A stretch of 37,552 nucleotides of DNA from Acidobacteriota bacterium. Lineage in GTDB: Bacteria; Acidobacteriota; Thermoanaerobaculia; Thermoanaerobaculales; Thermoanaerobaculaceae. Shown piece after piece: positions 7,081 through 18,224 of the stretch (positions within the stretch are counted from its first letter, which is position 1; every line of letters starts with the position of its first letter). The notes below the pieces were generated by a model. It saw only the letters and a program-made list of their open reading frames with translations. It was not told the DNA's origin and did not search any database. The position numbers were made by a program, and so were the translations under genes. The stretch spans positions 1 to 37,552 of the forward strand of contig SCRJ01000159.1 of NCBI GenBank assembly GCA_004298115.1. Reading direction: 5' to 3'.

Positions 7081-8130
7081 CTACGCGACCGTGACGTCCT
7101 TGCACAGGTAGACGTCCTGGATCGCGTGCAGCAGCTCGACGCCCTGCGCCATCGGCTTCTGGAACGCCTTGCGGCCGGAGATCATGCCGGAGCCGCCGGC
7201 GCGTTTGTTGACCACTGCCGTGAGCACGGCCTGGGCGAGGTCGTTCTTGCCGGACGCGCCGCCCGAGTTGATCAGCGGCGAGCGCCCGAGGTAGCAGTTG
7301 GCCACCTGCCAGCGTGTCCATTCGATCGGGTTGTCGGAGGTGAGCTTGTCGTAGACGAGCGGGTTCGTGTACCCGAACTTGATCGCGCCGTAGCCGTTGT
7401 TGCACTCGGGCGCCTTCTGCTTGATGATGTCGGCCTCGATCGTGACGCCGATGTGGTTGGCCTGGCCGGTGAGGTCGGCGGCGGTCTGGTAGTCCACGCC
7501 GTCCTTCTTGAACGCCGGGTTGCGCAGGTAGCACCACAGCACGGTGAACATGCCGAGCTCGTGCGCGTGCGCGAACGCCTGCGAGACCTCCTCGATCTGG
7601 CGCCGGGACTCGGCCGAGCCGAAGTACACGGTGGCGCCCACGGCGGCGGCCCCCATGTCGAACGCCTGGTCGACGCCCGCGTACATCGTCTGGTCGTAGG
7701 TCAGCGGGTAGGTGAGCGTCTCGTTGTGGTTGAGCTTGAGGATGAACGGGATCCTGTGGGCGTACCGGCGCGCCACCGAGCCGAGCGCCCCGAGCGTCGA
7801 CGCGACCGCGTTGCACCCGCCTTCGAGGGCCAGCTTGACGATGTTCTCCGGGTCGAAGTACGCCGGGTTGGGCGCGAACGAGGCCGCGCCCGAGTGCTCG
7901 ATCCCCTGGTCCACCGGCAGGATCGAGAGGTAGCCGGTGCCGGCCAGCCGCCCGGAGTTGAAGAGCGCGGCGAGGTTGCGCAGCACGTTGACGGGGCGGT
8001 CCGACGCCGCGACGACGCGGTCGATGAAGTCGGGCCCGGGGAGGTGCAGCATGTCCTTGGGGATGCCCTGGCACGAGTAGTCGAGCAGGGCCGCCTTGTC
8101 GCCCAGGTGCGCGCGAATCTCGTCGATCAT
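7081..8130 (-). CDS. fbaB: Class I fructose-bisphosphate aldolase (FbaB/DhnA type)
   Basis: A 349-residue cytoplasmic enzyme that reversibly splits fructose-1,6-bisphosphate into dihydroxyacetone phosphate and glyceraldehyde-3-phosphate through a Schiff base. Recognisable blocks are [27 protein letters not shown], the segment [12 protein letters not shown] (where the family's Schiff-base lysine probably lies), [10 protein letters not shown]-like [19 protein letters not shown], and the C-terminal [22 protein letters not shown]. It resembles the bacterial FbaB group rather than the class II zinc enzymes. The start at 8130 is preferred over the in-frame ATG at 8151 because GGAGG stands 5 nt before it. 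Together with glycogen phosphorylase it belongs to central sugar metabolism, but the two are separately transcribed. Confidence 0.93.
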
Positions 8131-8182
8131 GGTGGCCTCCAGCGATCCCATTCTACCGCCGCCGGTTGGCGCGGGGTCGCCG

Positions 8183-8917
8183 CTACGGTTCCGGCGGCGG
8201 CGCGAGGCCGAGCGCCGCGAGCGCGGCGGCGAAGTCGGCGGGCAGCGGCGCCGTCACGATCAGCTCGGGGCCGGCCGCGGTCGCCGGCAGGTGCACTCGC
8301 CAGGCGTGCAGCAGCGTGTGGCCGGGGTCGAGCAGCCGCCGCAGCGCGGGGTCGCGGACGCCGCGGTGGCGCGGGCCGCCGTAGAGGTCGTCGCCCACGA
8401 CCGGGTGGCCGGCGTGCGCGAGGTGGACGCGGATCTGGTGGGTGCGCCCGGTGGCCGGCTCGAGGCGCACGAGCGCCACGCCGGGGCCGCGGCCGGCGAC
8501 AAGGTAGCCGGTCGCGGCGGCGCGTCCCGCCGCGTCCACCCGCATCCGGCGGCGGTCGCTGCGGTCGGGGCCGAGGGGAGACGTCCAGCACCCCTCGGCC
8601 GGGCGCGGGCGGCCCCACACCAGCGCCAGGTAGGCCTTACCGACCCGCCGCGCCGCGAACGCCCGGACCAGCTCGCGGTGGGCGTCCTCGTCGCGGGCGA
8701 GCAGCACGACGCCGGAGGTGCCGACGTCGAGGCGGTGCACGAGCCGGAGCCCGGCGTCGAGCGCGTTGGCGTCGCGCTCGGCGTCGGGGAGCGCGGCGAG
8801 CAGACGGGCGACCGCGGCGCCCGGCTCGGCCCGGCGCGTGGCCAGGCTGACCCCGGCCGGCTTGGCGAGCGCCACGACGCGCTCGTCCGCATACAGGACG
8901 GATGCCACGGGTTGCAC
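8183..8917 (-). CDS. RluA-family RNA pseudouridine synthase
   Basis: A 244-residue enzyme that isomerises uridine to pseudouridine in rRNA or tRNA. It carries the family signature [19 protein letters not shown] with the catalytic Asp at 64, then [34 protein letters not shown], and a C-terminal LHAWRVHLP block. There is no N-terminal S4 RNA-binding domain, so it is a compact single-domain member, like RluA or TruC. The target base cannot be inferred. GTG 8917 is used; a second GTG at 8907 is possible, and neither has a strong SD. A long N-terminal extension in the same frame is arginine-rich and overlaps the divergent transporter, so it is rejected. Confidence 0.88.
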
Positions 8918-8970
8918 GCACGCAGCATGCCACGGCCGCGGCGGTCCGTCACCAGCGGCGCTGGGGGTGA

Positions 8971-8976
8971 TACCGT
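8971..8976 (+). promoter_or_regulatory. -10-like TACCGT, leaderless start of transporter gene
   Basis: TACCGT ends 6 nt before GTG 8983, so the transcript should start at the GTG itself. No SD is present. Confidence 0.4.
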
Positions 8977-8982
8977 CGCGGG

Positions 8983-10197
8983 GTGGACACCTGGGTCGTC
9001 CTCGTCTTCGGCTTCGTCTACCTGGGTATGGTGCTCGGCGAGATCCCGGGGCTCGCCCTCGACCGCACCGGGGTCGCGCTGCTCGGCGCGCTCGCCTTGA
9101 TCGCCTCCGAACGGGTGACCCCCGAGGCGGCATGGCGCGCCGTCGACGTGCCCACCCTGGCGCTCCTGTTCGGCCTGATGGTGGTCTCGGCGCAGTTCCG
9201 CCTCGGCGGGTTCTACGCGTTCGTCACGCGCAAGGCGGCGGCCGCACGCGTCTCGCCGGCGGTCCTCCTTGGCCTGGTGGTCGGCGTGGCCGGCGGCCTC
9301 TCGGCGGTGCTGGCCAACGACATCGTCTGCCTGGCGGTCGCGCCGCTCCTGATCGAGGGGTGCGCGCGCCGCGGCCTCGACCCGGTGCCGTTCCTGCTCG
9401 CCCTCGCCTGCGCCGCCAACGTCGGTTCCGCGGCGACGCTCATCGGCAACCCGCAGAACATGCTGATCGGGCAGACGCTGCACCTCTCGTTCGTGGGCTA
9501 CCTCGGCGACGCCGCGGTGCCCGCGATCCTCGGCCTCGGCGTGGTGTGGGGGGTCGTGGTGGTCTCGGCGCGCGGCTCATGGTTCAAGTCGACGAGCGTC
9601 CCGCCGGTCGACGAGGCGGGCCTGAACCGCTGGCAGACGGGCAAGGGCATGGTCGTGCTCGGCCTGCTCCTGCTCGGCTTCGTGTTCGCCCCGATGCCGC
9701 GCGAGGTGCTCGCCCTGGCGGCGGCGGCGGTGCTGCTGACCAGCCGCCGGATGGCGTCGCGCGACCTCCTCGGGCTGGTGGACTGGCACCTGCTCGTGCT
9801 CTTCGTCGGCCTGTTCGTCGTGAACTTCGCCCTCGCGGACTCGGGGACGCTGGCGGTGGCGACCCGGGCGCTCGAGCGCGGCGGCGTGGACCTGACGCGC
9901 CCCGGCGTGCTCTTCCCGCTCACGGTTGTGCTTTCGAACCTGGTCTCCAACGTCCCCGCCGTGATGCTGCTGCTGCCGCAGGCGACGCGGCCGGAGGCGG
10001 GGCCGCTGCTCGCGCTCGCCTCGACGCTCGCCGGCAACCTGATCATCGTCGGGTCGGTCGCGAACATCATCGTCGTGGACCAGGCGGCGCGCCTGGGCGT
10101 CCATATCGGCTGGAAGCGGCACGCCCGCGTCGGGGTCCCGGTGACGCTCGCGACGCTCGCGCTCGCGGCCGGCTGGCTCGCCCTCGTCGCCCGCTGA
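8983..10197 (+). CDS. ArsB/NhaD/SLC13-like anion transporter
   Basis: A 404-residue integral membrane protein with about 10-11 hydrophobic segments. It has the two-repeat arrangement of the ion-transporter superfamily: an ANDIVCLAVAPLLIE reentrant-type motif in the first half, matched by SNLVSNVPAVMLLLP in the second half, and NVGSAATLIGNPQNMLIG in between. These motifs are seen in ArsB-type arsenite, citrate/dicarboxylate and Na+/H+ transporters. The specificity cannot be told: no ars, sulfate or dicarboxylate genes are adjacent. It is divergent from the pseudouridine synthase gene. The start is the GTG at 8983, immediately downstream of a -10-like hexamer. Confidence 0.83.
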   Translation: MDTWVVLVFGFVYLGMVLGEIPGLALDRTGVALLGALALIASERVTPEAAWRAVDVPTLALLFGLMVVSAQFRLGGFYAFVTRKAAAARVSPAVLLGLVVGVAGGLSAVLANDIVCLAVAPLLIEGCARRGLDPVPFLLALACAANVGSAATLIGNPQNMLIGQTLHLSFVGYLGDAAVPAILGLGVVWGVVVVSARGSWFKSTSVPPVDEAGLNRWQTGKGMVVLGLLLLGFVFAPMPREVLALAAAAVLLTSRRMASRDLLGLVDWHLLVLFVGLFVVNFALADSGTLAVATRALERGGVDLTRPGVLFPLTVVLSNLVSNVPAVMLLLPQATRPEAGPLLALASTLAGNLIIVGSVANIIVVDQAARLGVHIGWKRHARVGVPVTLATLALAAGWLALVAR

Positions 10198-10229
10198 GCC
10201 GCCGCCTGACCGCGCCGGCGCCCACCCCC

Positions 10230-10257
10230 TTGACAACATCGATTCTTGCCCTATCTT
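10230..10257 (+). promoter_or_regulatory. Consensus sigma-70 promoter of the kamA leader
   Basis: TTGACA (10230-10235), 16-bp spacer, TATCTT (10252-10257). It is one of the two complete TTGACA -35 hexamers noted in the window. Transcription would start near 10264, about 350 nt before kamA. Confidence 0.75.
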
Positions 10258-10328
10258 TTAGGTGAGTATGGATACGGTCGTCTCGCCTGACCAGCCTCCA
10301 AGTAGTACCAACCGCGTGAGGCGTTGTT

Positions 10329-10375
10329 CCGCGGCCGCAGGGAGAGTCTCCCCCAACGCGGCCGCGGTTGCTTTT
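10329..10375 (+). terminator. Intrinsic terminator in the kamA leader
   Basis: Arms CCGCGGCCGC (10329-10338) and GCGGCCGCGG (10358-10367) are perfectly complementary. An inner GGGAG/CTCCC hairpin lies between them, and TTGCTTTT follows. It stands about 65 nt after the predicted transcription start and 240 nt before kamA. Confidence 0.75.
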
Positions 10376-10586
10376 CCCACCACGAGAACGCTCGCCACGA
10401 CGCCGTGCGGCACACCGTCGTCGCCGCGGCTGAGCTCTGGCGGGACTCGAGCCTAAGGGGACGAGAGCCATGCTCCCGTGCCCCTCGAGGGCTTTCCTGC
10501 CGGGCCGGCAGCGGGTGGCCCCTGGAGCAGCAGAGCAGAGAGAGTCCGAGTCCCTGTCCACCCGAACCATGCGCAACGGACGTGAC

Positions 10587-10604
10587 ACCTCCCGATCCGG
10601 AGGT
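10587..10604 (+). promoter_or_regulatory. Hairpin sequestering the kamA Shine-Dalgarno
   Basis: ACCTCC (10587-10592) is the exact complement of GGAGGT (10599-10604), with a 6-nt loop. The right arm is an SD for kamA. A second, weaker AGGAGA (10604-10609) lies 3 nt before the ATG. Folding of this hairpin would lower translation. Confidence 0.6.
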
Positions 10605-10612
10605 AGGAGATC

Positions 10613-11776
10613 ATGAACGAAAACACGGCAGCTGCAGACCCACTGATAGCAGGCGCGCGGCGCGACGAGATTTGCCGGATCTTCGGCGAATCCTACGACC
10701 CCGCGCGCTGGAACGACTGGCGCTGGCAGATGCGCCACCGCTTCATCAAGCCGGAGCAGTTCGAGAAGCTGCTCCGCCTCACGACCTCCGAGCGGCGGGG
10801 TCTGGCGATGACGCACGAAAAGTTCGCGGTGGCGATCACACCGCACTTCGCGGAGCTCATCGACCCGGACGATCCCAACTGCCCGATTCGGCGGCAGGTC
10901 GTCCCGCGCGAGGAGGAGCTGCTGGTCGGCCCGGGGGACATGACGGACCCGTGCGGCGAGGACCACGACGAGGTGGTTCCCGGCCTCGTCCACCGCTACC
11001 CCGACCGCGTCCTCCTGCTCGCCCTCGACACCTGCGCGGCGTACTGCCGCTACTGCACGCGCTCGCGCCTCGTGAGCCAGGGGGAGCTCGACCCGCTGCC
11101 GCGCCGCCTCGACGCCGTGATCGCCTACCTCGAGGCGCACACCGAGGTGCGCGACGTGCTGCTCTCGGGCGGCGACCCGTTGCTGATGTCCGAGGACCGT
11201 CTCGACGAGGTGCTCGGCCGCATCCGCGCGATCCCGCACATCGAGTTCGTGCGCATCGGCTCGCGCGTTCCCTCGTTCCTGCCGCAGCGCATCACCCCCG
11301 AGCTGGTCGCGGTGCTGCGCAAGCACCGCGTCTGGCTGTCGCTGCACTTCTGCCACGCCCGCGAGATCACGCCGGACGTCGCCCGCGCCTGCGACCTGCT
11401 CGCCGACGGCGGCATCCCGCTCGGCTCGCAGACCGTGCTCCTGAAGGGCGTGAACGACGAGGTGCAGACCCTCAAGGACCTCGTCCACGCGCTGCTCAAG
11501 GTCCGCGTGCGCCCGTACTACCTCTACCAGTGCGACCCGGTCGTCGGCACCGGTCACCTGCGCACCAGCGTGGCCAAGGGGATCGAGCTGATCTCGGGGT
11601 TGCGCGGCCACACCACCGGGTACGCGGTCCCGACCTACGTCATCGACGCCCCGGGCGGCGGCGGCAAGGTGCCGATCCAGGCGGAGACGATCGTGTCGTA
11701 CGAGAACGGCCAGGCGCTGCTGCGCAACTGGGCGGGCCGAACCTACTCGTACGTGGACCCGGCGGACCACGCGTAG
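10613..11776 (+). CDS. kamA: L-lysine 2,3-aminomutase (radical SAM, PLP)
   Basis: A 387-residue enzyme of the KamA/AblA family that converts L-lysine to beta-lysine using a [4Fe-4S] cluster, S-adenosylmethionine and PLP. The cluster cysteines are C141, C145 and C148 (CAAYCRYC). GGDPL (186-190) is the usual SAM-region glycine motif. The PLP lysine is K352 in DAPGGGGKVP. The two aspartates that hold the epsilon-amino group of lysine in the clostridial enzyme are present: D308 (YQCD) and D345 (DAPGGGGK). Glutamate 2,3-aminomutases carry Lys and Asn there. There is no EpmB-like shortening. GGAGGT/AGGAGA precede the ATG. The next gene starts 4 nt after the stop, so it heads an operon with two ATP-grasp ligases and probably the GNAT gene. 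Confidence 0.93.
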   Translation: MNENTAAADPLIAGARRDEICRIFGESYDPARWNDWRWQMRHRFIKPEQFEKLLRLTTSERRGLAMTHEKFAVAITPHFAELIDPDDPNCPIRRQVVPREEELLVGPGDMTDPCGEDHDEVVPGLVHRYPDRVLLLALDTCAAYCRYCTRSRLVSQGELDPLPRRLDAVIAYLEAHTEVRDVLLSGGDPLLMSEDRLDEVLGRIRAIPHIEFVRIGSRVPSFLPQRITPELVAVLRKHRVWLSLHFCHAREITPDVARACDLLADGGIPLGSQTVLLKGVNDEVQTLKDLVHALLKVRVRPYYLYQCDPVVGTGHLRTSVAKGIELISGLRGHTTGYAVPTYVIDAPGGGGKVPIQAETIVSYENGQALLRNWAGRTYSYVDPADHA

Positions 11777-11780
11777 GCGC

Positions 11781-12767
11781 ATGGGCCTCGCGATCGGCCT
11801 GACCTACGACCTGAAGGACGACTACCTCGCGGCGGGGTTCTCCCCGGAGGACGTGCTCGAGTTCGACGGCCTCGACACCGTGGCCGGCCTCGAGCAGGCG
11901 CTGGCCGGGCTCGGCCACCGGACGGAACGGGTCGGGCGCGGACGCGAGCTCGCCCGCCGCCTCGCCGGCGGCGAGCGCTGGGACCTCGTGTTCAACATCT
12001 GCGAGGGCGTGTGGGGGCGCTCGCGCGAGGCGCAGGTGCCCGCGCTGTGCGAGCTGTTCGACCAGCCGTACACCTTCGCCGACCCGCTCACCTGCGCGCT
12101 CACCCTCGACAAGGCGATGGCCAAGCGCGTGGTGCGCGACCACGGCCTGCCCACGGCGCCGTTCGCGGTGGTCGCCGCGCCCGAGGACGCGGCCGCCGTC
12201 GACCTGCCGGCGCCGCTGTTCTTGAAGCCGGTCGCCGAGGGCAGCTCGAAGGGGGTGACCGGGCGCTCGCTGGTGCGCGACCGGGGCGAGCTCGCCGCCG
12301 CCTGCCGCGAGCTGCTCGAGCGGTTCCGCCAGCCGGTGCTGGTCGAGGCCTTCCTGCCCGGGCGCGAGGTCACGGTCGGGATCGTCGGCCACGGCGAGGG
12401 CGCACGGACGGTCGGCGTGCTCGAGGTCTCGTTCACCGCGCGCGCCGAGACGGCGGCGTACACCGCGCTCAACAAGGAGGAGTACCAGGAGCGAGTGGCG
12501 TACCGCGTCCTCACCGACGACCCGCTCGCGCCGCCGGCGCGTGCGCTGGCGCTCGCGGTGTTCGCCGTCCTCGGTTGCCGCGATGCCGCCCGCATCGACC
12601 TGCGCTGCGATGACGCCGGGGTCCTCCACTTCCTCGAGGTCAACCCGCTCCCCGGCATCAACCACGTGCGCTCCGACCTGCCGATCATGGCGCGCCTGGG
12701 CGGCATGCCGTACGGCGAGCTGATCGGCGCGATCGTGGAGTCGGCGCGCGCCCGGTACCAGTTGTGA
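11781..12767 (+). CDS. D-Ala-D-Ala ligase-like ATP-grasp enzyme (first of two)
   Basis: A 328-residue ATP-dependent carboxylate-amine ligase. The N-terminal domain has FNICEGVWGRSREAQVPALCE (71-91), which resembles the substrate-binding loop of Ddl enzymes. ATP-grasp motifs follow: FLKP (147-150, ATP-binding Lys149), the glycine/serine loop EGSSKGV (153-159), LVEAFLPGREVTVG (187-200), ARIDLR (270-275) and the metal-binding FLEVNPLPG (284-292). It is not a housekeeping Ddl by context: it lies between lysine aminomutase and another ligase, with no mur or fts genes nearby. I infer that it activates an amino-acid carboxylate and joins it to an amine, perhaps of beta-lysine. It starts 4 nt after kamA and overlaps the next gene by four bases (GTGA). 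Confidence 0.85.
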   Translation: MGLAIGLTYDLKDDYLAAGFSPEDVLEFDGLDTVAGLEQALAGLGHRTERVGRGRELARRLAGGERWDLVFNICEGVWGRSREAQVPALCELFDQPYTFADPLTCALTLDKAMAKRVVRDHGLPTAPFAVVAAPEDAAAVDLPAPLFLKPVAEGSSKGVTGRSLVRDRGELAAACRELLERFRQPVLVEAFLPGREVTVGIVGHGEGARTVGVLEVSFTARAETAAYTALNKEEYQERVAYRVLTDDPLAPPARALALAVFAVLGCRDAARIDLRCDDAGVLHFLEVNPLPGINHVRSDLPIMARLGGMPYGELIGAIVESARARYQL

Positions 12768-13762
12768 GCGCCAGGCCCGAGCGCGCCGTCATCGCGCACA
12801 CCGCCGTCGATCCCGAGGCGGATCCCTCCACCGCGGACGTCCTCGACCAGGTGCGGCTGTTCGAAGAAGGCCTCAGCACTCTCGGCGTCCCCCACACGAC
12901 GGTCGCCGTGGACGCCGGCCGGGTGTGGGCGCACGCCGCCGAGCTGGCGGGGGCGGTGGTCTGCAACCTGCTCGAGGCGCCGCCGGGAAAGCCGCAACTG
13001 CACGCGGCGGCGACCGCGGCGCTCGAGTTGCTGGGCGTGCCGTTCACGGGATCCCCGGCGGGGGCGCTGTGGCTGACCACCGACAAGCTCGCGACTCGGG
13101 CCGTGCTCGCCGCCGAGGGCCTGCCGGTCGCGGCGGGCGGGCGATTCGACCCGGAGCACCCCGTGTTGCTGGAGCGCGTCCCGCCGCCGTGGATCCTCAA
13201 ACCCGCGTGGGAGGACGCATCGGTCGGCCTGGAGGGCGACCCGGTGTGCGCCACCCCGGAACTGGCGATCGCTCGCGGCCGCGCGCTCGCGGCGCGCTTT
13301 CCCGGTCAGCCGGTGCTGGCGGAGCACTTCCTCCCCGGGCGCGAGTTCAACGTCTCGCTGCTCGCCGAAGGTAGAGGCGCCGAGGCGCTCCCGGTGGCGG
13401 AGATCGCGTTCGTCGACTTCCCCGCCGGTGTCCCGGCGCTGGTCGGGTACGAGGCGAAGTGGGCCGCCGGTTCGTTCGAGGAGACGCACACGGTGCGCCG
13501 CTTTCCCGGTCGCGAGGACGCGGCGCTGCTCGGGCGCATCCGCGGGTTGGCGCTGGCGTGCTGGCGGCCGTGCGCGCTCGCCGGCTACGCGCGCGTCGAC
13601 TTGCGCCTCGACGAGGCGGGCGCCCCCGTCATCCTCGAGGTCAACACCAACCCGTGCCTGTCGGCGGACGCCGGGTTCGTCGCGGCGGCGCGGGAGGCGG
13701 GCATGGCGCCGGCCGATCTGGTCGCGCGGATCCTCGCGGCCGCGGTGTCGCCGGCGCGCTGA
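12764..13762 (+). CDS. Second ATP-grasp ligase, divergent from the first
   Basis: A 332-residue ATP-grasp protein, distantly similar to D-Ala-D-Ala ligases and to its neighbour. The motifs in order are CNLLEAPPGKPQLHAA (67-82), PFTGSPAGALWLTTDKLATR (93-112), WILKP (143-147), EDASVGL (150-156), LAEHFLPGREFNVSLL (185-200), ARVDLRLDEAG (276-286) and ILEVNTNPCLS (290-300). The ATP and Mg sites look intact, so it should be active. Its GTG start overlaps the upstream stop (GTGA), indicating translational coupling. Two different ligases after one aminomutase suggest two successive peptide bonds, or one heterodimeric ligase. The substrate is unknown. Confidence 0.83.
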   Translation: MSARPERAVIAHTAVDPEADPSTADVLDQVRLFEEGLSTLGVPHTTVAVDAGRVWAHAAELAGAVVCNLLEAPPGKPQLHAAATAALELLGVPFTGSPAGALWLTTDKLATRAVLAAEGLPVAAGGRFDPEHPVLLERVPPPWILKPAWEDASVGLEGDPVCATPELAIARGRALAARFPGQPVLAEHFLPGREFNVSLLAEGRGAEALPVAEIAFVDFPAGVPALVGYEAKWAAGSFEETHTVRRFPGREDAALLGRIRGLALACWRPCALAGYARVDLRLDEAGAPVILEVNTNPCLSADAGFVAAAREAGMAPADLVARILAAAVSPAR

Positions 13763-13780
13763 GCGGGCGGCGAGCGGTGG

Positions 13781-13786
13781 TAGGCT
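13781..13786 (+). promoter_or_regulatory. -10-like TAGGCT before the GNAT gene
   Basis: TAGGCT lies in the 57-nt gap between the second ligase and the GNAT gene. It could give the GNAT gene a transcript of its own with a leader of about 25 nt. No -35 is evident. Confidence 0.3.
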
Positions 13787-13819
13787 TGGGCGGACGGACG
13801 TGCCGTTGTGGAGGCGTGA

Positions 13820-14305
13820 GTGAACATTCGCACCGATCTGCGTCCCGAAGACCGCGCGCCGCTCGAGGCGCTGCTGCGGGGTACCGGTTTCTTCAACCCG
13901 CAGGAGCTCGAGGTCGCGCTCGAGCTCGTGGACGACCGCCTGGCCCACGGTGAGGGGAGCCACTACCGTTTCCTCGTCCTCGAGGCTGCGGGCGAGGTGC
14001 TCGGCTACGCCTGCTGGGGCCCGATCCCGGGCACCCTCGCGTCGGCGGACCTGTACTGGATCGCGGTCCACCCCGAGCGGCAAGGCGAGGGGTTGGGCCG
14101 GGCGCTGCTCGACGCCGCCGAGACCTGGATCGCCCGCGAAGGGCGCACCCGGGTGTACCTGGAGACCTCGTCGCGGCCGCAGTACGTGCCGACGAGGGCG
14201 TTCTACCTGCGCTGCGGTTACGAGGTCGCCGCCGAGCTCCCGGAGTTCTACGCGCCCGGCGACGGCAAGGTGATCTTCCTGAAGATCCTGCCGCGCGTGC
14301 ACTGA
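13820..14305 (+). CDS. GNAT-family N-acetyltransferase
   Basis: A 161-residue acetyl-CoA-dependent acyltransferase. Motif A is VHPERQGEGLGRALL with the pyrophosphate loop Q88-G89-E90-G91-L92-G93. YWIAV (79-83) is the preceding strand, and RAFYLRCGYE is the typical motif B near the C-terminus. The GTG at 13820 is preceded by GGAGG with 5-nt spacing. It follows the second ATP-grasp gene by 57 nt in the same direction. In archaea and some bacteria, lysine 2,3-aminomutase works with an acetyltransferase (AblB) to make the compatible solute N-epsilon-acetyl-beta-lysine. By analogy this enzyme may acetylate the ligase product or beta-lysine itself, but I see no specific AblB signature. Confidence 0.85.
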   Translation: MNIRTDLRPEDRAPLEALLRGTGFFNPQELEVALELVDDRLAHGEGSHYRFLVLEAAGEVLGYACWGPIPGTLASADLYWIAVHPERQGEGLGRALLDAAETWIAREGRTRVYLETSSRPQYVPTRAFYLRCGYEVAAELPEFYAPGDGKVIFLKILPRVH

Positions 14306-14419
14306 CCCGGAGGTCGCGCCCCACACGTCCGTCGCGGTCGCCCGCCGGTCGGCCGGCCCTTCCCGCACCTGGAGGACCGGTGCTGTCGCCGTTGAGTCTC
14401 CTTTGTTCGCCGGTTGCTC

Positions 14420-14425
14420 TACAAT
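14420..14425 (+). promoter_or_regulatory. -10-like TACAAT, leaderless start of DUF4388 gene
   Basis: TACAAT ends 6 nt before ATG 14432, giving a predicted leaderless transcript. No good -35 at 16-18 bp and no SD are seen. Confidence 0.5.
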
Positions 14426-14431
14426 TACTCA

Positions 14432-15532
14432 ATGAGCCTCGCAGGACACCTGAGCGAACTCGCGCTCCCCGACCTTCTCCAAATCGTCGCCATGGCCGAA
14501 AAGAGCGGCCGCCTCGACCTTTCCAGCCGGGACGGGGAAGGGTTGATCGTCTTCCGCAGCGGGCGGGTCATCTACGCCGCCTCGAACGCGGCGCGGGAGA
14601 CGCTCGGCAGCATTCTGGTCTGCCGCCACCTGGTGTCGGAGGAGGAGCTGCACAAGGCGCTCGAGCACCAGTTCCGCTCACGCGAGGAACGGCGGCTGGG
14701 TTCGATCCTGGTCGAGATGGGTCTGGTGTCGCTCGATGCCCTCGAGGCGGTGCTCTACCAGCAGATCCAGCGGGTGATCGGGGAGCTGGTCAAGTGGCGC
14801 GACGGGTACTTCAAGTTCGAGGCGTTCGAGATCCCCGATCACGGGGAGATCGCCGTCGATGCGCGGGAGTTCCTCGCCGAGGCGGGGTTCAACGCCCACC
14901 GGATCGCGCTCGAGCTCTCCCGCATCGCCGACGAGGCGCGGCAGGCGGGTGCGCCGCCGCGGTCCGTCTTCCCGCTCCCGGTCGAAGGGAGCGCGGGCCC
15001 GGCGGTGGCGCCGCCACGGACGTCGTTGGGCAGCATCCTGGCCGACCGACCCGCCCCGTCGCTGACCGCCGAAACCACGATGAGCCTGCTCCGCGCCGGG
15101 GAGGGGTTCTTCTCGCGCGCGGTGCTCCTGATCGTCGAGCGCTACGGGCTGTCCGGCGTCGGGCAGTTCGGCCTGCGCGCCGGCGACGCGACGGTCGACG
15201 AGAGCATCCGCAACCTCTGGCTGCCGCTCGGCGCCGCCTCGCTGGCTGCGGACGCGGTCGCCTCCGGCTGCACCCGTCGGGGCCGGCCCGAGCCGAGCGA
15301 CGCCAACCAGCTGCTCGTCAGCGAGCTCGGGGGCGAGTGGCCGGTCGAGGCGGCGGTGCTGCCCGTTCACGCCGGCGCGCACCTCGTGGCGGTGCTCTAC
15401 GGCGACACGATGCCCGCCGCCACGCCGCTGCCGGCGCTCGACCGCCTCGAGGCGAAGCTTGCCGAAATCGGCGTCGCGATCGCCGCGGCCGAGCTTCCGG
15501 CCGCCGCCGCGACGGCGCCCCCGGTCGTCTGA
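14432..15532 (+). CDS. DUF4388 (PATAN-like) domain protein
   Basis: A 366-residue soluble protein. Residues 1 to about 100 match the DUF4388/PATAN pattern: an N-terminal SLAGHLSELALPDLLQIVAMAEKSG block, then SGRLDLSS, GLIVFRSGRVIYAAS and a helical linker. A second helical part (about 80-170) carries RLGSILVEMGLVSLDALEAVLYQQIQ, similar to the 'two-component-adjacent' repeats found with this domain, followed by a Pro/Ala-rich linker (175-210) and a C-terminal region that could be GAF-like. Such proteins are associated with gliding, pili or signalling in Myxococcota, Acidobacteriota and cyanobacteria (PatA). The partner is not visible here. It is convergent with aceE, 16 nt away. The start is ATG 14432, downstream of TACAAT. 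Confidence 0.75.
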   Translation: MSLAGHLSELALPDLLQIVAMAEKSGRLDLSSRDGEGLIVFRSGRVIYAASNAARETLGSILVCRHLVSEEELHKALEHQFRSREERRLGSILVEMGLVSLDALEAVLYQQIQRVIGELVKWRDGYFKFEAFEIPDHGEIAVDAREFLAEAGFNAHRIALELSRIADEARQAGAPPRSVFPLPVEGSAGPAVAPPRTSLGSILADRPAPSLTAETTMSLLRAGEGFFSRAVLLIVERYGLSGVGQFGLRAGDATVDESIRNLWLPLGAASLAADAVASGCTRRGRPEPSDANQLLVSELGGEWPVEAAVLPVHAGAHLVAVLYGDTMPAATPLPALDRLEAKLAEIGVAIAAAELPAAAATAPPVV

Positions 15533-15548
15533 CGGCGGGAGCCGCCAG

Positions 15549-18224
15549 CTAGCGCGTCACCGGGTCGGGGCGGTCGGGATCGAGGCCGAGCGCCGAGATC
15601 GCGGCGGCCGCTTCCTCGGGTGGCATCGCTCCGGCGCGGGCGAGCACCGACACCGTCGCCGCGGCGATGTGCTCGGCGTCCACCTCGAAGTGGCGGCGCA
15701 GCGCCACCCGCGTGTCGGAGAGGCCGAAGCCGTCGGTGCCGAGCGGGGTCAGCCCCTGCGGCAGGAAGCGCGCGACCGAGTCCGGGAGCAGCTTCATGTA
15801 CTCCGACGCGGCGATCACCGGTCCCGGGGCGCCGGCGAGCTGCGCCGTCAGATACGGCGTACGCGCCGGCTCCGCCGGGTGGAGGCGGTTCCAGCGTTCG
15901 GCGGCGAGCGCGTCGGCGCGCAGCTGCTGGTAGCTCGTGACGCTCCAGACGTCGGCGCCGACGCCGAAGTCGGCGGCGAGGATGTCGGCGGCGCGCAGCG
16001 CCTCGCGCACGGTCACGCCGCTGCCGAGCAGCTGGGCGCGGCGCGCGTGCTCCCCTCCGGCGCGCCGCAGCGGGTAGATCCCGCGCACGATCCCCTCCTC
16101 GGCGCCCGCCGGCATCGGCGGCATCTCGTAGTTCTCGTTGTACAGGGTGATGTAGTAGAAGACGTCGCGGCCCTCCTCCACCATCGCCTTGAGGCCGTCC
16201 TCGACGATCACCGCGAGCTCGTACGCGTACGCCGGGTCGAAGATGCGCACGTTGGGCACCACGGAGAACAGCACCGGGCTGTGCCCGTCGTCGTGCTGAA
16301 GGCCCTCGCCCTGGAGCGTCGTGCGGCCCGCGGTGGCGCCGAGCAGGAAGCCGCGCCCGCGGGCGTCGCCGAACGCCCACACCAGGTCGCCGACGCGCTG
16401 GTAGCCGAACATCGAGTAGAAGATGTAGAACGGCACCATGGTGACGCCGTGGGTGGCGTGGGCGGTGCCGGCCGCGGTGAACGACGCCAGGGCCCCGGCC
16501 TCGGTGATCCCCTCCTCGAGGATCTGGCCGTCCCTGGCCTCCTGGTAGCGCAGGATCATGTTGTGGTCGACCGGCTCGTACAGCTGGCCGCCCGACGCGT
16601 AGATCCCGAGTTCCTTGAACAGCGACTCCATGCCGAACGTGCGCGCCTCGTCCGGGATGATCGGCACGATCCGGGGCCCTAGTCCGGGGGTCCGCAGGAG
16701 CTTGCGCAAGAGCTGGACGAACGCCATCGTAGTGGAAACCTCGCGCTTGGGCGGCGTCCCCTCGTGAAACTCGGCCCAGACCTCGGCGGCCGGCAGCTCA
16801 GGCGCAGGCGCCTGGGACTTGCGCAGCGGCAGGGTGCCGCCGAGCGCGCGCCGCCGCTCGAGGAGGTACTCGACCTCCGGGCTGTCGGTTCCGGGGTGGA
16901 AGTACGGTGGATCCTCGACCAGCGCCGCGTCGGGGATCGGGAGGTGGAGCACGTCGCGGAACGCCCGCAGCTGCGCCGCGTTGAGTTTCTTCTGCTGGTG
17001 CGTGGTGTAGCGGCCCTCGAAGTCCTTGCCGAGCGCCCACCCCTTGACCGTCTTGACGAGGAGCGCGGTCGGGCGCCCGTTGCTCTCGGTCGCGGCGCGA
17101 TACGCGGCGTACACCTTGCGGTAGTCGTGCCCGCCGAACTTGAGGTTCCAGATGTCGGTGTCGGAGAGGTGCTCGACCATCTTCGCCAGGCGCGGGTCGG
17201 CGCCGAAGAAGTGCTGGCGCATGAACCCGCCGCCCTCGACGTGGTAGCGCTGCCACCAGCCGTCCACGATCGTGTTGAGCCGCTCGACGAGCACCCCGGA
17301 GGCGTCCGCGGCGAGCAGCGGGTCCCACTCCCGGCCGAGGATCACCTTGATCACGTTCCACCCCGAGCCGCGGAACACCGCCTCGAGCTCCTGGATGATC
17401 TTGCCGTTCCCGCGCACCGGGCCGTCCAGGCGCTGGAGGTTGCAGTTGACGACGAAGATCAGGTTGTCGAGGCCCTCGTCGGCCGCGACGTGCAGGGCGC
17501 CGAGCGCCTCCGGCTCGTCGGTCTCGCCGTCGCCGAGGAACGCCCACACCCGTGAGCCGCCGGTGTCCGCCAGAGAGCGGTTCGCGAGGTAGCGGTTGAA
17601 CCGCGCCTGGTAGATCGCGTTGAGCGGACCGAGCCCCATCGAGACCGTGGGGAACTCCCAGAAGTCCGGCATGTTGCGCGGGTGCGGGTAGGAGGGGAGG
17701 CCGTGGCCGGTGGTCTCGCGGCGGTAGGCGTCCAGTTGCGCCTCGGTGAGGCGCCCCTCGAGGAACGCACGGGCGTACATGCCGGGCGCCGCGTGACCCT
17801 GGTAGAAGATCTGGTCGCCGCTGCCGCCGTCCTTGCCGCGGAAGAAGTGGTTGAACCCCACCTCGTACAGCGCCGCGGCGGAGGCGTAGGTCGAGAGGTG
17901 CCCGCCGATTCCCGGGTCGCGGTGGTTGGCGCGGGTGACCATCGCCATCGCGTTCCAGCGCACGATGCGCCGGATGCGCTTCTCCATCTCCTCGTCGCCG
18001 GGGAACGGCGGCTCCTGTTCGGGAGAGATCGTGTTGATGTACGGCGTCTGGATCGCCTCGATCCCGAGGTGCTGCATGCGCGCCCGCTTGAGGACCTTGC
18101 GCAGGAGGAACTTGGCCCGCTCGGGCCCGGCGGTCGCGAGCACGCGGTCGAGCGACTCGACCCACTCGGCCGTCTCCTGGGGGTCGGCGTCGTAGAGCTG
18201 CTGCTTGAACAGAGTGTCGTTCAT
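15549..18224 (-). CDS. aceE: Pyruvate dehydrogenase E1, homodimeric type
   Basis: An 891-residue thiamine-diphosphate enzyme that decarboxylates pyruvate and acetylates the lipoyl domain of E2. The length and single-chain layout match the homodimeric AceE type (about 890 residues), not the alpha/beta type. Visible blocks are IEAIQTPYINTI, HPRNMPDFWEFPTVSMGLGP, the ThDP/Mg motif GDGETDEPEALGALHVAADE beginning at 231 and ending at VVNCN (258-262), and the C-terminal SYQQLRADALAAERWNRLHP region. The ATG at 18224 has GAGGA-rich sequence before it; an arginine-rich extension upstream is rejected. E2 (aceF) and E3 (lpd) genes are not adjacent. TACCCT (18302-18307 on the other strand) could be its -10. 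Confidence 0.95.
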   Translation of the reverse strand: MNDTLFKQQLYDADPQETAEWVESLDRVLATAGPERAKFLLRKVLKRARMQHLGIEAIQTPYINTISPEQEPPFPGDEEMEKRIRRIVRWNAMAMVTRANHRDPGIGGHLSTYASAAALYEVGFNHFFRGKDGGSGDQIFYQGHAAPGMYARAFLEGRLTEAQLDAYRRETTGHGLPSYPHPRNMPDFWEFPTVSMGLGPLNAIYQARFNRYLANRSLADTGGSRVWAFLGDGETDEPEALGALHVAADEGLDNLIFVVNCNLQRLDGPVRGNGKIIQELEAVFRGSGWNVIKVILGREWDPLLAADASGVLVERLNTIVDGWWQRYHVEGGGFMRQHFFGADPRLAKMVEHLSDTDIWNLKFGGHDYRKVYAAYRAATESNGRPTALLVKTVKGWALGKDFEGRYTTHQQKKLNAAQLRAFRDVLHLPIPDAALVEDPPYFHPGTDSPEVEYLLERRRALGGTLPLRKSQAPAPELPAAEVWAEFHEGTPPKREVSTTMAFVQLLRKLLRTPGLGPRIVPIIPDEARTFGMESLFKELGIYASGGQLYEPVDHNMILRYQEARDGQILEEGITEAGALASFTAAGTAHATHGVTMVPFYIFYSMFGYQRVGDLVWAFGDARGRGFLLGATAGRTTLQGEGLQHDDGHSPVLFSVVPNVRIFDPAYAYELAVIVEDGLKAMVEEGRDVFYYITLYNENYEMPPMPAGAEEGIVRGIYPLRRAGGEHARRAQLLGSGVTVREALRAADILAADFGVGADVWSVTSYQQLRADALAAERWNRLHPAEPARTPYLTAQLAGAPGPVIAASEYMKLLPDSVARFLPQGLTPLGTDGFGLSDTRVALRRHFEVDAEHIAAATVSVLARAGAMPPEEAAAAISALGLDPDRPDPVTR

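Follow-up and report, generated by a model that had tools for sequence, protein, structure and literature searches.

A conserved gene cassette of lysine 2,3-aminomutase, two Ddl-fold ATP-grasp ligases and a GNAT acetyltransferase as a candidate operon for an acetylated beta-lysyl peptide

Lysine 2,3-aminomutase and a GNAT acetyltransferase together constitute the AblA/AblB pathway, an established route to Nepsilon-acetyl-beta-lysine. Beta-lysine is also a constituent of antibiotics such as streptothricin and viomycin. Beyond these, surveys by Iyer, Burroughs, Aravind and colleagues have dealt with predicted ATP-grasp non-ribosomal peptide systems, operons in which such ligases are combined with enzymes that modify amino acids (PMC2922099). 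We analysed a stretch of 37,552 nucleotides from an Acidobacteriota genome (contig SCRJ01000159.1; hereafter the window). The features concerned are as follows.

8983-10197, + strand: CitMHS-type transporter gene, upstream of the cassette
10230-10257, + strand: sigma70-like promoter match TTGACA-16-TATCTT, a consensus match only
10270-10612, + strand: long non-coding leader of kamA, highly conserved within the genus
10613-11776, + strand: kamA, lysine 2,3-aminomutase (radical SAM, PLP), ATG start, 387 aa
11781-12767, + strand: lig1, Ddl-fold ATP-grasp carboxylate-amine ligase of a cassette-specific clade, ATG start, 328 aa
12764-13762, + strand: lig2, second Ddl-fold ATP-grasp ligase of a separate cassette-specific group, GTG start, 332 aa
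13820-14305, + strand: GNAT N-acetyltransferase of a cassette family, relative of structure 2r7h, GTG start, 161 aa

A sequence-only reading of this DNA had placed kamA, two Ddl-like ATP-grasp ligases and a GNAT in line, and its coordinates were confirmed. Inspection of the sequence shows a 4-nt gap between kamA and lig1, a 4-nt GTGA overlap between lig1 and lig2, and a 57-nt gap ahead of the GNAT gene. A family search assigned radical SAM and LAM_C domains to kamA, Dala_Dala_lig_C to both ligases and GNAT to the fourth gene.

kamA is preceded by a good ribosome-binding site (GGAGG). The sigma70-like match lies ~355 nt upstream of the gene (1 found vs 0.1 expected in a consensus scan) and is identical in a same-genus locus, L051. 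Within the leader, the 19-nt core GACGAGAGCCATGCTCCCG is present exactly at this place in 9/9 same-genus genomes, while only mismatched copies occur elsewhere. The leader, a possible regulatory element, gave a folding z of -2.05, no Rfam match, and no compensatory pairs in the alignment, so that any RNA structure in it is putative. Riboswitch control was considered and rejected: Rfam returned no match in window positions 8000-16000 at E up to 1, and only tmRNA among 11 related loci. These searches also revealed no regulatory link to salt. Long antisense ORFs in the window were set aside as expected from GC-rich DNA and otherwise without support.

KamA aligns with the C. subterminale lysine 2,3-aminomutase 2a5h over 357 residues (E 2e-130). 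In this alignment KamA C141/C145/C148, K352, D308 and D345 correspond to 2a5h Cys125/129/132, Lys337, Asp293 and Asp330, which we take to be the cluster cysteines (CxxxCxxC), the PLP-binding lysine and the pair of aspartates holding the side chain of the substrate lysine, respectively. The full set expected of a lysine 2,3-aminomutase is therefore present, and is invariant in 23/23 cassette KamAs. Among the specific KamA models, the highest score is for the AblA model TIGR03820 (455 bits, below the cut-off of 525), followed by glutamate (380), arginine (378) and EpmB (249 bits), every one sub-cut-off; the cut-off of the general KamA family model TIGR00238 is exceeded. The conserved binding residues support the earlier assignment of KamA as lysine-type, and lysine is a well supported prediction for its substrate. 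A truncated kamA in genome G201 was discounted as biological evidence, as both copies are cut by assembly runs of N.

Both ligases fall far below the curated Ddl cut-off of 243 bits (best scores 150 for lig1 and 102 for lig2) and miss every other Ddl or Van cut-off, while a separate canonical Ddl in the same genome passes. We constructed a ligase tree by quick search from 219 sequences, including 120 lig1, 90 lig2 and Ddl rows. A single branch (SH-aLRT 93) sets off all 120 lig1 rows, and the 90 lig2 rows lie apart both from lig1 and from a clade of seven Ddl rows; two long-branched Ddl-like rows (L202, L207) sit loosely among lig2. Column counts were made for the equivalents of DdlB Lys97, Lys144, Glu187, Lys215, Arg255, Asp257, Glu270 and Asn272, which we assume to be the ATP/Mg catalytic residues. 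Lys97, Lys144, Lys215, Arg255 and Asn272 have counterparts in 120/120 lig1 and 90/90 lig2, and Glu187, Asp257 and Glu270 in 120/120 lig1 and 89/90 lig2. The ATP-binding lysines, Mg-binding Asp/Glu/Asn and catalytic Arg of an ATP-grasp carboxylate-amine ligase are thus retained in both.

A different picture is obtained for DdlB Glu15, Ser150, Tyr216 and Ser281, presumably the D-Ala pocket residues. At the Tyr216 position 90/90 lig2 have Trp, and Glu is the commonest residue of lig1; the Ser150 position is Ala in 86/90 lig2 and Ser/Thr in lig1. Ser281 is lost in lig2, while the corresponding lig1 loop is changed by an inserted, nearly invariant D299; judged from the alignment, Ser298 beside this insertion may replace Ser281 by a one-residue shift. 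Glu15 is shifted in lig1, with an invariant-like acidic Glu27 beside it. The D-Ala pocket set is therefore absent from both ligases, with caveats for lig1 at Glu15 and Ser281. AlphaFold models of lig1 and lig2 (pLDDT 94) find Ddl structures as their best PDB matches. Given retained catalytic residues, a changed pocket and Ddl-fold models, both appear to be competent-looking ATP-grasp ligases with a pocket unlike that of D-Ala ligase. The earlier expectation that they differ from D-Ala ligases is thus borne out by scores and pocket residues, as far as sequence comparison goes.

The cassette is retained in the close relatives of the window genome, with lig1 found in 9/9 genus genomes searched (the window's own counted) and in 7/8 further genomes of the family. 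Of 297 genomes sampled over the whole phylum, 51 contain lig1. With the own genome counted, strong kamA genes are present in 50/51 genomes with lig1 vs 12/247 without, and kamA lies <4 kb from lig1 in 45 of the 51. The Fisher p for co-occurrence is 5e-44, a value that overstates independence since the sampled genomes are related. One of the 12 (G319) actually has the cassette, at a contig end, and several ligase-free kamA genes adjoin KCE-like or POR genes. Five lig1 genomes carry kamA away from the cassette (three of f28, two of f18). A further genome, G084 (95% complete), has lig1-lig2-gnat with only a weak kamA relative, and perhaps draws the amino acid from another source; its cassette is found at L069:3235-5703 in the reversed order gnat-lig2-lig1. 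Elsewhere in the phylum the order lig1-lig2-gnat-kamA is seen.

Scanning named genomes with a lig1 alignment retrieved at least 80 loci. Among the matches listed, 80 lig1-retrieved loci comprise 71 with kamA, 65 with lig2, 55 with GNAT and 52 with all four. With few exceptions the genes are arranged as kamA-lig1-lig2-(HDAC)-gnat, and several incomplete loci stop at a contig edge. The pair of kamA and lig1 spans at least 14 named phyla and the complete set at least 10, including Thermodesulfobacteriota, Bacteroidota, Myxococcota, Pseudomonadota, Planctomycetota, Acidobacteriota and Nitrospirota. Across 65 loci, the four proteins show correlated pairwise distances (Spearman 0.52-0.79). Cassette relatives were found neither in viral contigs nor, at E 1e-30, in plasmids. 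As the same set recurs through the genus, family and phylum of the window and in many other phyla, the cassette is more than a chance arrangement. A neighbourhood check set beforehand asked whether kamA is kept with merely unrelated neighbours; instead, ligases and GNAT recur. On the grounds of co-occurrence, adjacency and gene fusions, they form a genuine functional unit of deep conservation, as had been proposed.

In the tree, window lig1 groups with that of a Thermoanaerobaculia MAG (L101), which makes the window genome a probable member of this class of Acidobacteriota. Cyanobacterial lig1 is nested within the lig1 clade of the window's family. No lig2 ortholog was found in the cyanobacterial genomes with kamA-lig1. 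This combination suggests transfer of a kamA-lig1 core to cyanobacteria, where it would work alone. Since cyanobacteria retain these two genes only, kamA and lig1 look like the minimal core, and the end product must differ between genomes.

The cassette is widespread and often accompanied by a fifth, HDAC-type partner. Among the matches listed, 19/80 lig1-retrieved loci encode a protein that combines an HDAC domain with a weak GNAT match at its N-terminus, as do a few loci of the window's phylum. Nearest relatives of the HDAC part are acetylpolyamine amidohydrolases, a likeness that would be fitting for an acetylated linear amine. The window genome itself contains partial HDAC-domain matches only and no full-length GNAT-HDAC, and one same-genus genome carries the full-length form away from the cassette. 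Fused open frames join HDAC to GNAT in nine loci and lig2 to GNAT in six (among the matches listed), their make-up being based on tblastn placement and open frames. The lig2-GNAT fusions, which recall the fused enzyme used in NAGGN synthesis, suggest that the lig2 and GNAT steps are coupled.

With moderate confidence, we interpret the locus as a compact operon whose product would be an acetylated beta-lysyl peptide. The partnership of the genes, the fold, the catalytic residues and the fused open frames are observed, while every substrate and the succession of reactions are inferred. KamA would convert L-lysine to beta-lysine, the step best grounded in conserved residues. Using ATP, lig1 would then activate a carboxylate as acyl phosphate and form an amide of beta-lysine with a second amino acid (the ligase partner could also be something other than an amino acid), following which lig2 would add a further residue. 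The GNAT would acetylate a free amine, most likely on the beta-lysyl residue. In many other genomes, the acetylpolyamine-amidohydrolase-type enzyme probably takes the acetyl group off again, for deprotection or recycling. The product is best read as an N-acetylated di- or tripeptide of beta-lysine that remains in the cell. By analogy with acetyl-beta-lysine and NAGGN, which are osmolytes, it would most likely, though this is tentative, serve as an osmolyte or stress solute.

The alternative that survives best, which we nonetheless rate as unlikely, is that the ligases, instead of making a free peptide, tag a protein, lipid or wall acceptor with beta-lysine, much as EpmB/EpmA do with EF-P, and that the GNAT, HDAC-type and SET enzymes modify the lysine-like amine of the tag. 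All three are known modifiers of lysine side chains, and a single ligase is enough in cyanobacteria. Small SET-domain proteins adjoin kamA/lig genes in two cyanobacterial and two alphaproteobacterial loci (L097:5473-5910, L098:5525-5923, L139 about 10310-10750 and L167:10316-10759). However, the EpmB score of KamA (249 bits) does not reach the cut-off of 369, no conserved acceptor protein gene was found among the neighbour families of the cassette, and the ligases have the fold of Ddl, which joins free amino acids. SET-domain proteins are surprising neighbours for a small-molecule pathway.

An AblA/AblB-like arrangement, in which KamA and the GNAT make Nepsilon-acetyl-beta-lysine and the ligases serve a separate role, appears improbable. 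It draws on established chemistry, and AblA is the best-scoring model for KamA. Yet the cassette GNAT had no match to AblB-type models in the curated model search; its matches are RimI-like and others only, all sub-cut-off. The fusion partners of the GNAT are lig2 and the HDAC-type enzyme, not KamA, and in their pairwise distances lig1 and lig2 follow kamA no less closely than the GNAT does.

More doubtful still is a beta-lysine-containing secondary metabolite made for export, whether antibiotic, siderophore or signal, for which the antibiotics mentioned above provide precedent. In three Nostocaceae loci, genes that by sequence are MATE-like efflux genes adjoin lig1 in convergent orientation (L098:6993-8390, L099:7346-8722 and L100:7798-9183). 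Elsewhere the cassette has no conserved transporter neighbour, and retention in the genus and most of the family is atypical of secondary metabolism. As the neighbour families include no conserved transporter family, the acetylated beta-lysyl peptide that we favour probably stays inside the cell rather than being exported.

Several flanking genes were considered as cassette parts and rejected. The CitMHS transporter is a neighbour in some members of the family and otherwise in a single Desulfobacterales locus, and the downstream DUF4388 gene is a neighbour in the genus only; YkgJ-like (7 loci), SET (4 loci) and NUDIX (1 locus) genes are too rare to be core members. PF16980-type transporters adjoin lig1 in L081 and L088, and a window-like transporter is located near the L175 cassette. 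A CxxCxxCC (YkgJ-like) protein gene lies between kamA and lig1 at L121:5394-6023, with similar genes in L122, L132, L133, L168 and L173. Directly upstream of kamA, L133 has a KCE/BKACE-like gene (L133:1480-2340) alongside the full ligase cassette, and the same protein family adjoins ligase-free kamA in L176-L178. Lysine 5,6-aminomutase and KCE genes, as looked for in connection with lysine fermentation, were absent from the window neighbours scanned.

That lig1 and lig2 are extra D-Ala-D-Ala ligases for the cell wall or glycopeptide resistance, with accidental kamA adjacency, is very improbable: both carry Dala_Dala_lig_C and the Ddl fold, but scores lie far under all Ddl/Van cut-offs, the genome has a canonical Ddl that passes, pocket residues are altered in both, and the kamA linkage is conserved across at least 14 named phyla.

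More tentatively, the cassette could stand for a widespread and previously undescribed class of acetylated di- or tripeptides of beta-lysine that are kept inside the cell. Two dedicated Ddl-derived ligases would make them, with reversible GNAT/HDAC-type acetylation, in at least a dozen phyla. A four- or five-gene pathway conserved over so many phyla must yield something useful. Such a class would widen beta-lysine chemistry past a simple osmolyte and a few antibiotics, assign a function to many genes probably auto-named D-alanine-D-alanine ligase, and link a small-molecule substrate with HDAC-type and SET enzymes of bacteria.

Comparison with known systems places the cassette between several of them. 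The GNAT belongs to the same family as PDB 2r7h (E 5e-58), 'Putative D-alanine N-acetyltransferase of GNAT family', a structure only, with function putative; a full-text literature search gave no functional paper, and the single paper naming 2r7h concerns an unrelated toxin. No curated family model searched covers lig1, lig2 or the GNAT. The full-text search also returned no description of the cassette, the survey of Iyer et al. 2009 being outside its reach, and the cassette may already be listed there among the predicted ATP-grasp non-ribosomal peptide systems. The ATP-grasp systems of PMC2922099 differ in that both an aminomutase and a deacetylase are unmentioned there.

With NAGGN synthesis, the cassette shares the idea that ATP-grasp and GNAT activities yield a small acetylated peptide. 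The differences are another ATP-grasp subfamily, no conserved asparagine-synthase-like partner among the neighbour families, and no match of the four cassette proteins to the NAGGN fusion type TIGR03103. The comparison with AblA/AblB and NAGGN drawn in the sequence-only reading did not hold up in detail, because neither AblB nor NAGGN-type models were matched; both are thus chemical analogies and not systems to which the cassette belongs. Lig1 and lig2 share with the Ddl family the fold and the ATP/Mg catalytic residues, and depart from it in the D-Ala pocket, their separate tree groups and their failure to reach any curated cut-off. The AblA/AblB pathway has the aminomutase and a GNAT acetyltransferase in common with the cassette, which in contrast adds two ATP-grasp ligases, employs a GNAT of another family and has a KamA that scores under the AblA equivalog cut-off.
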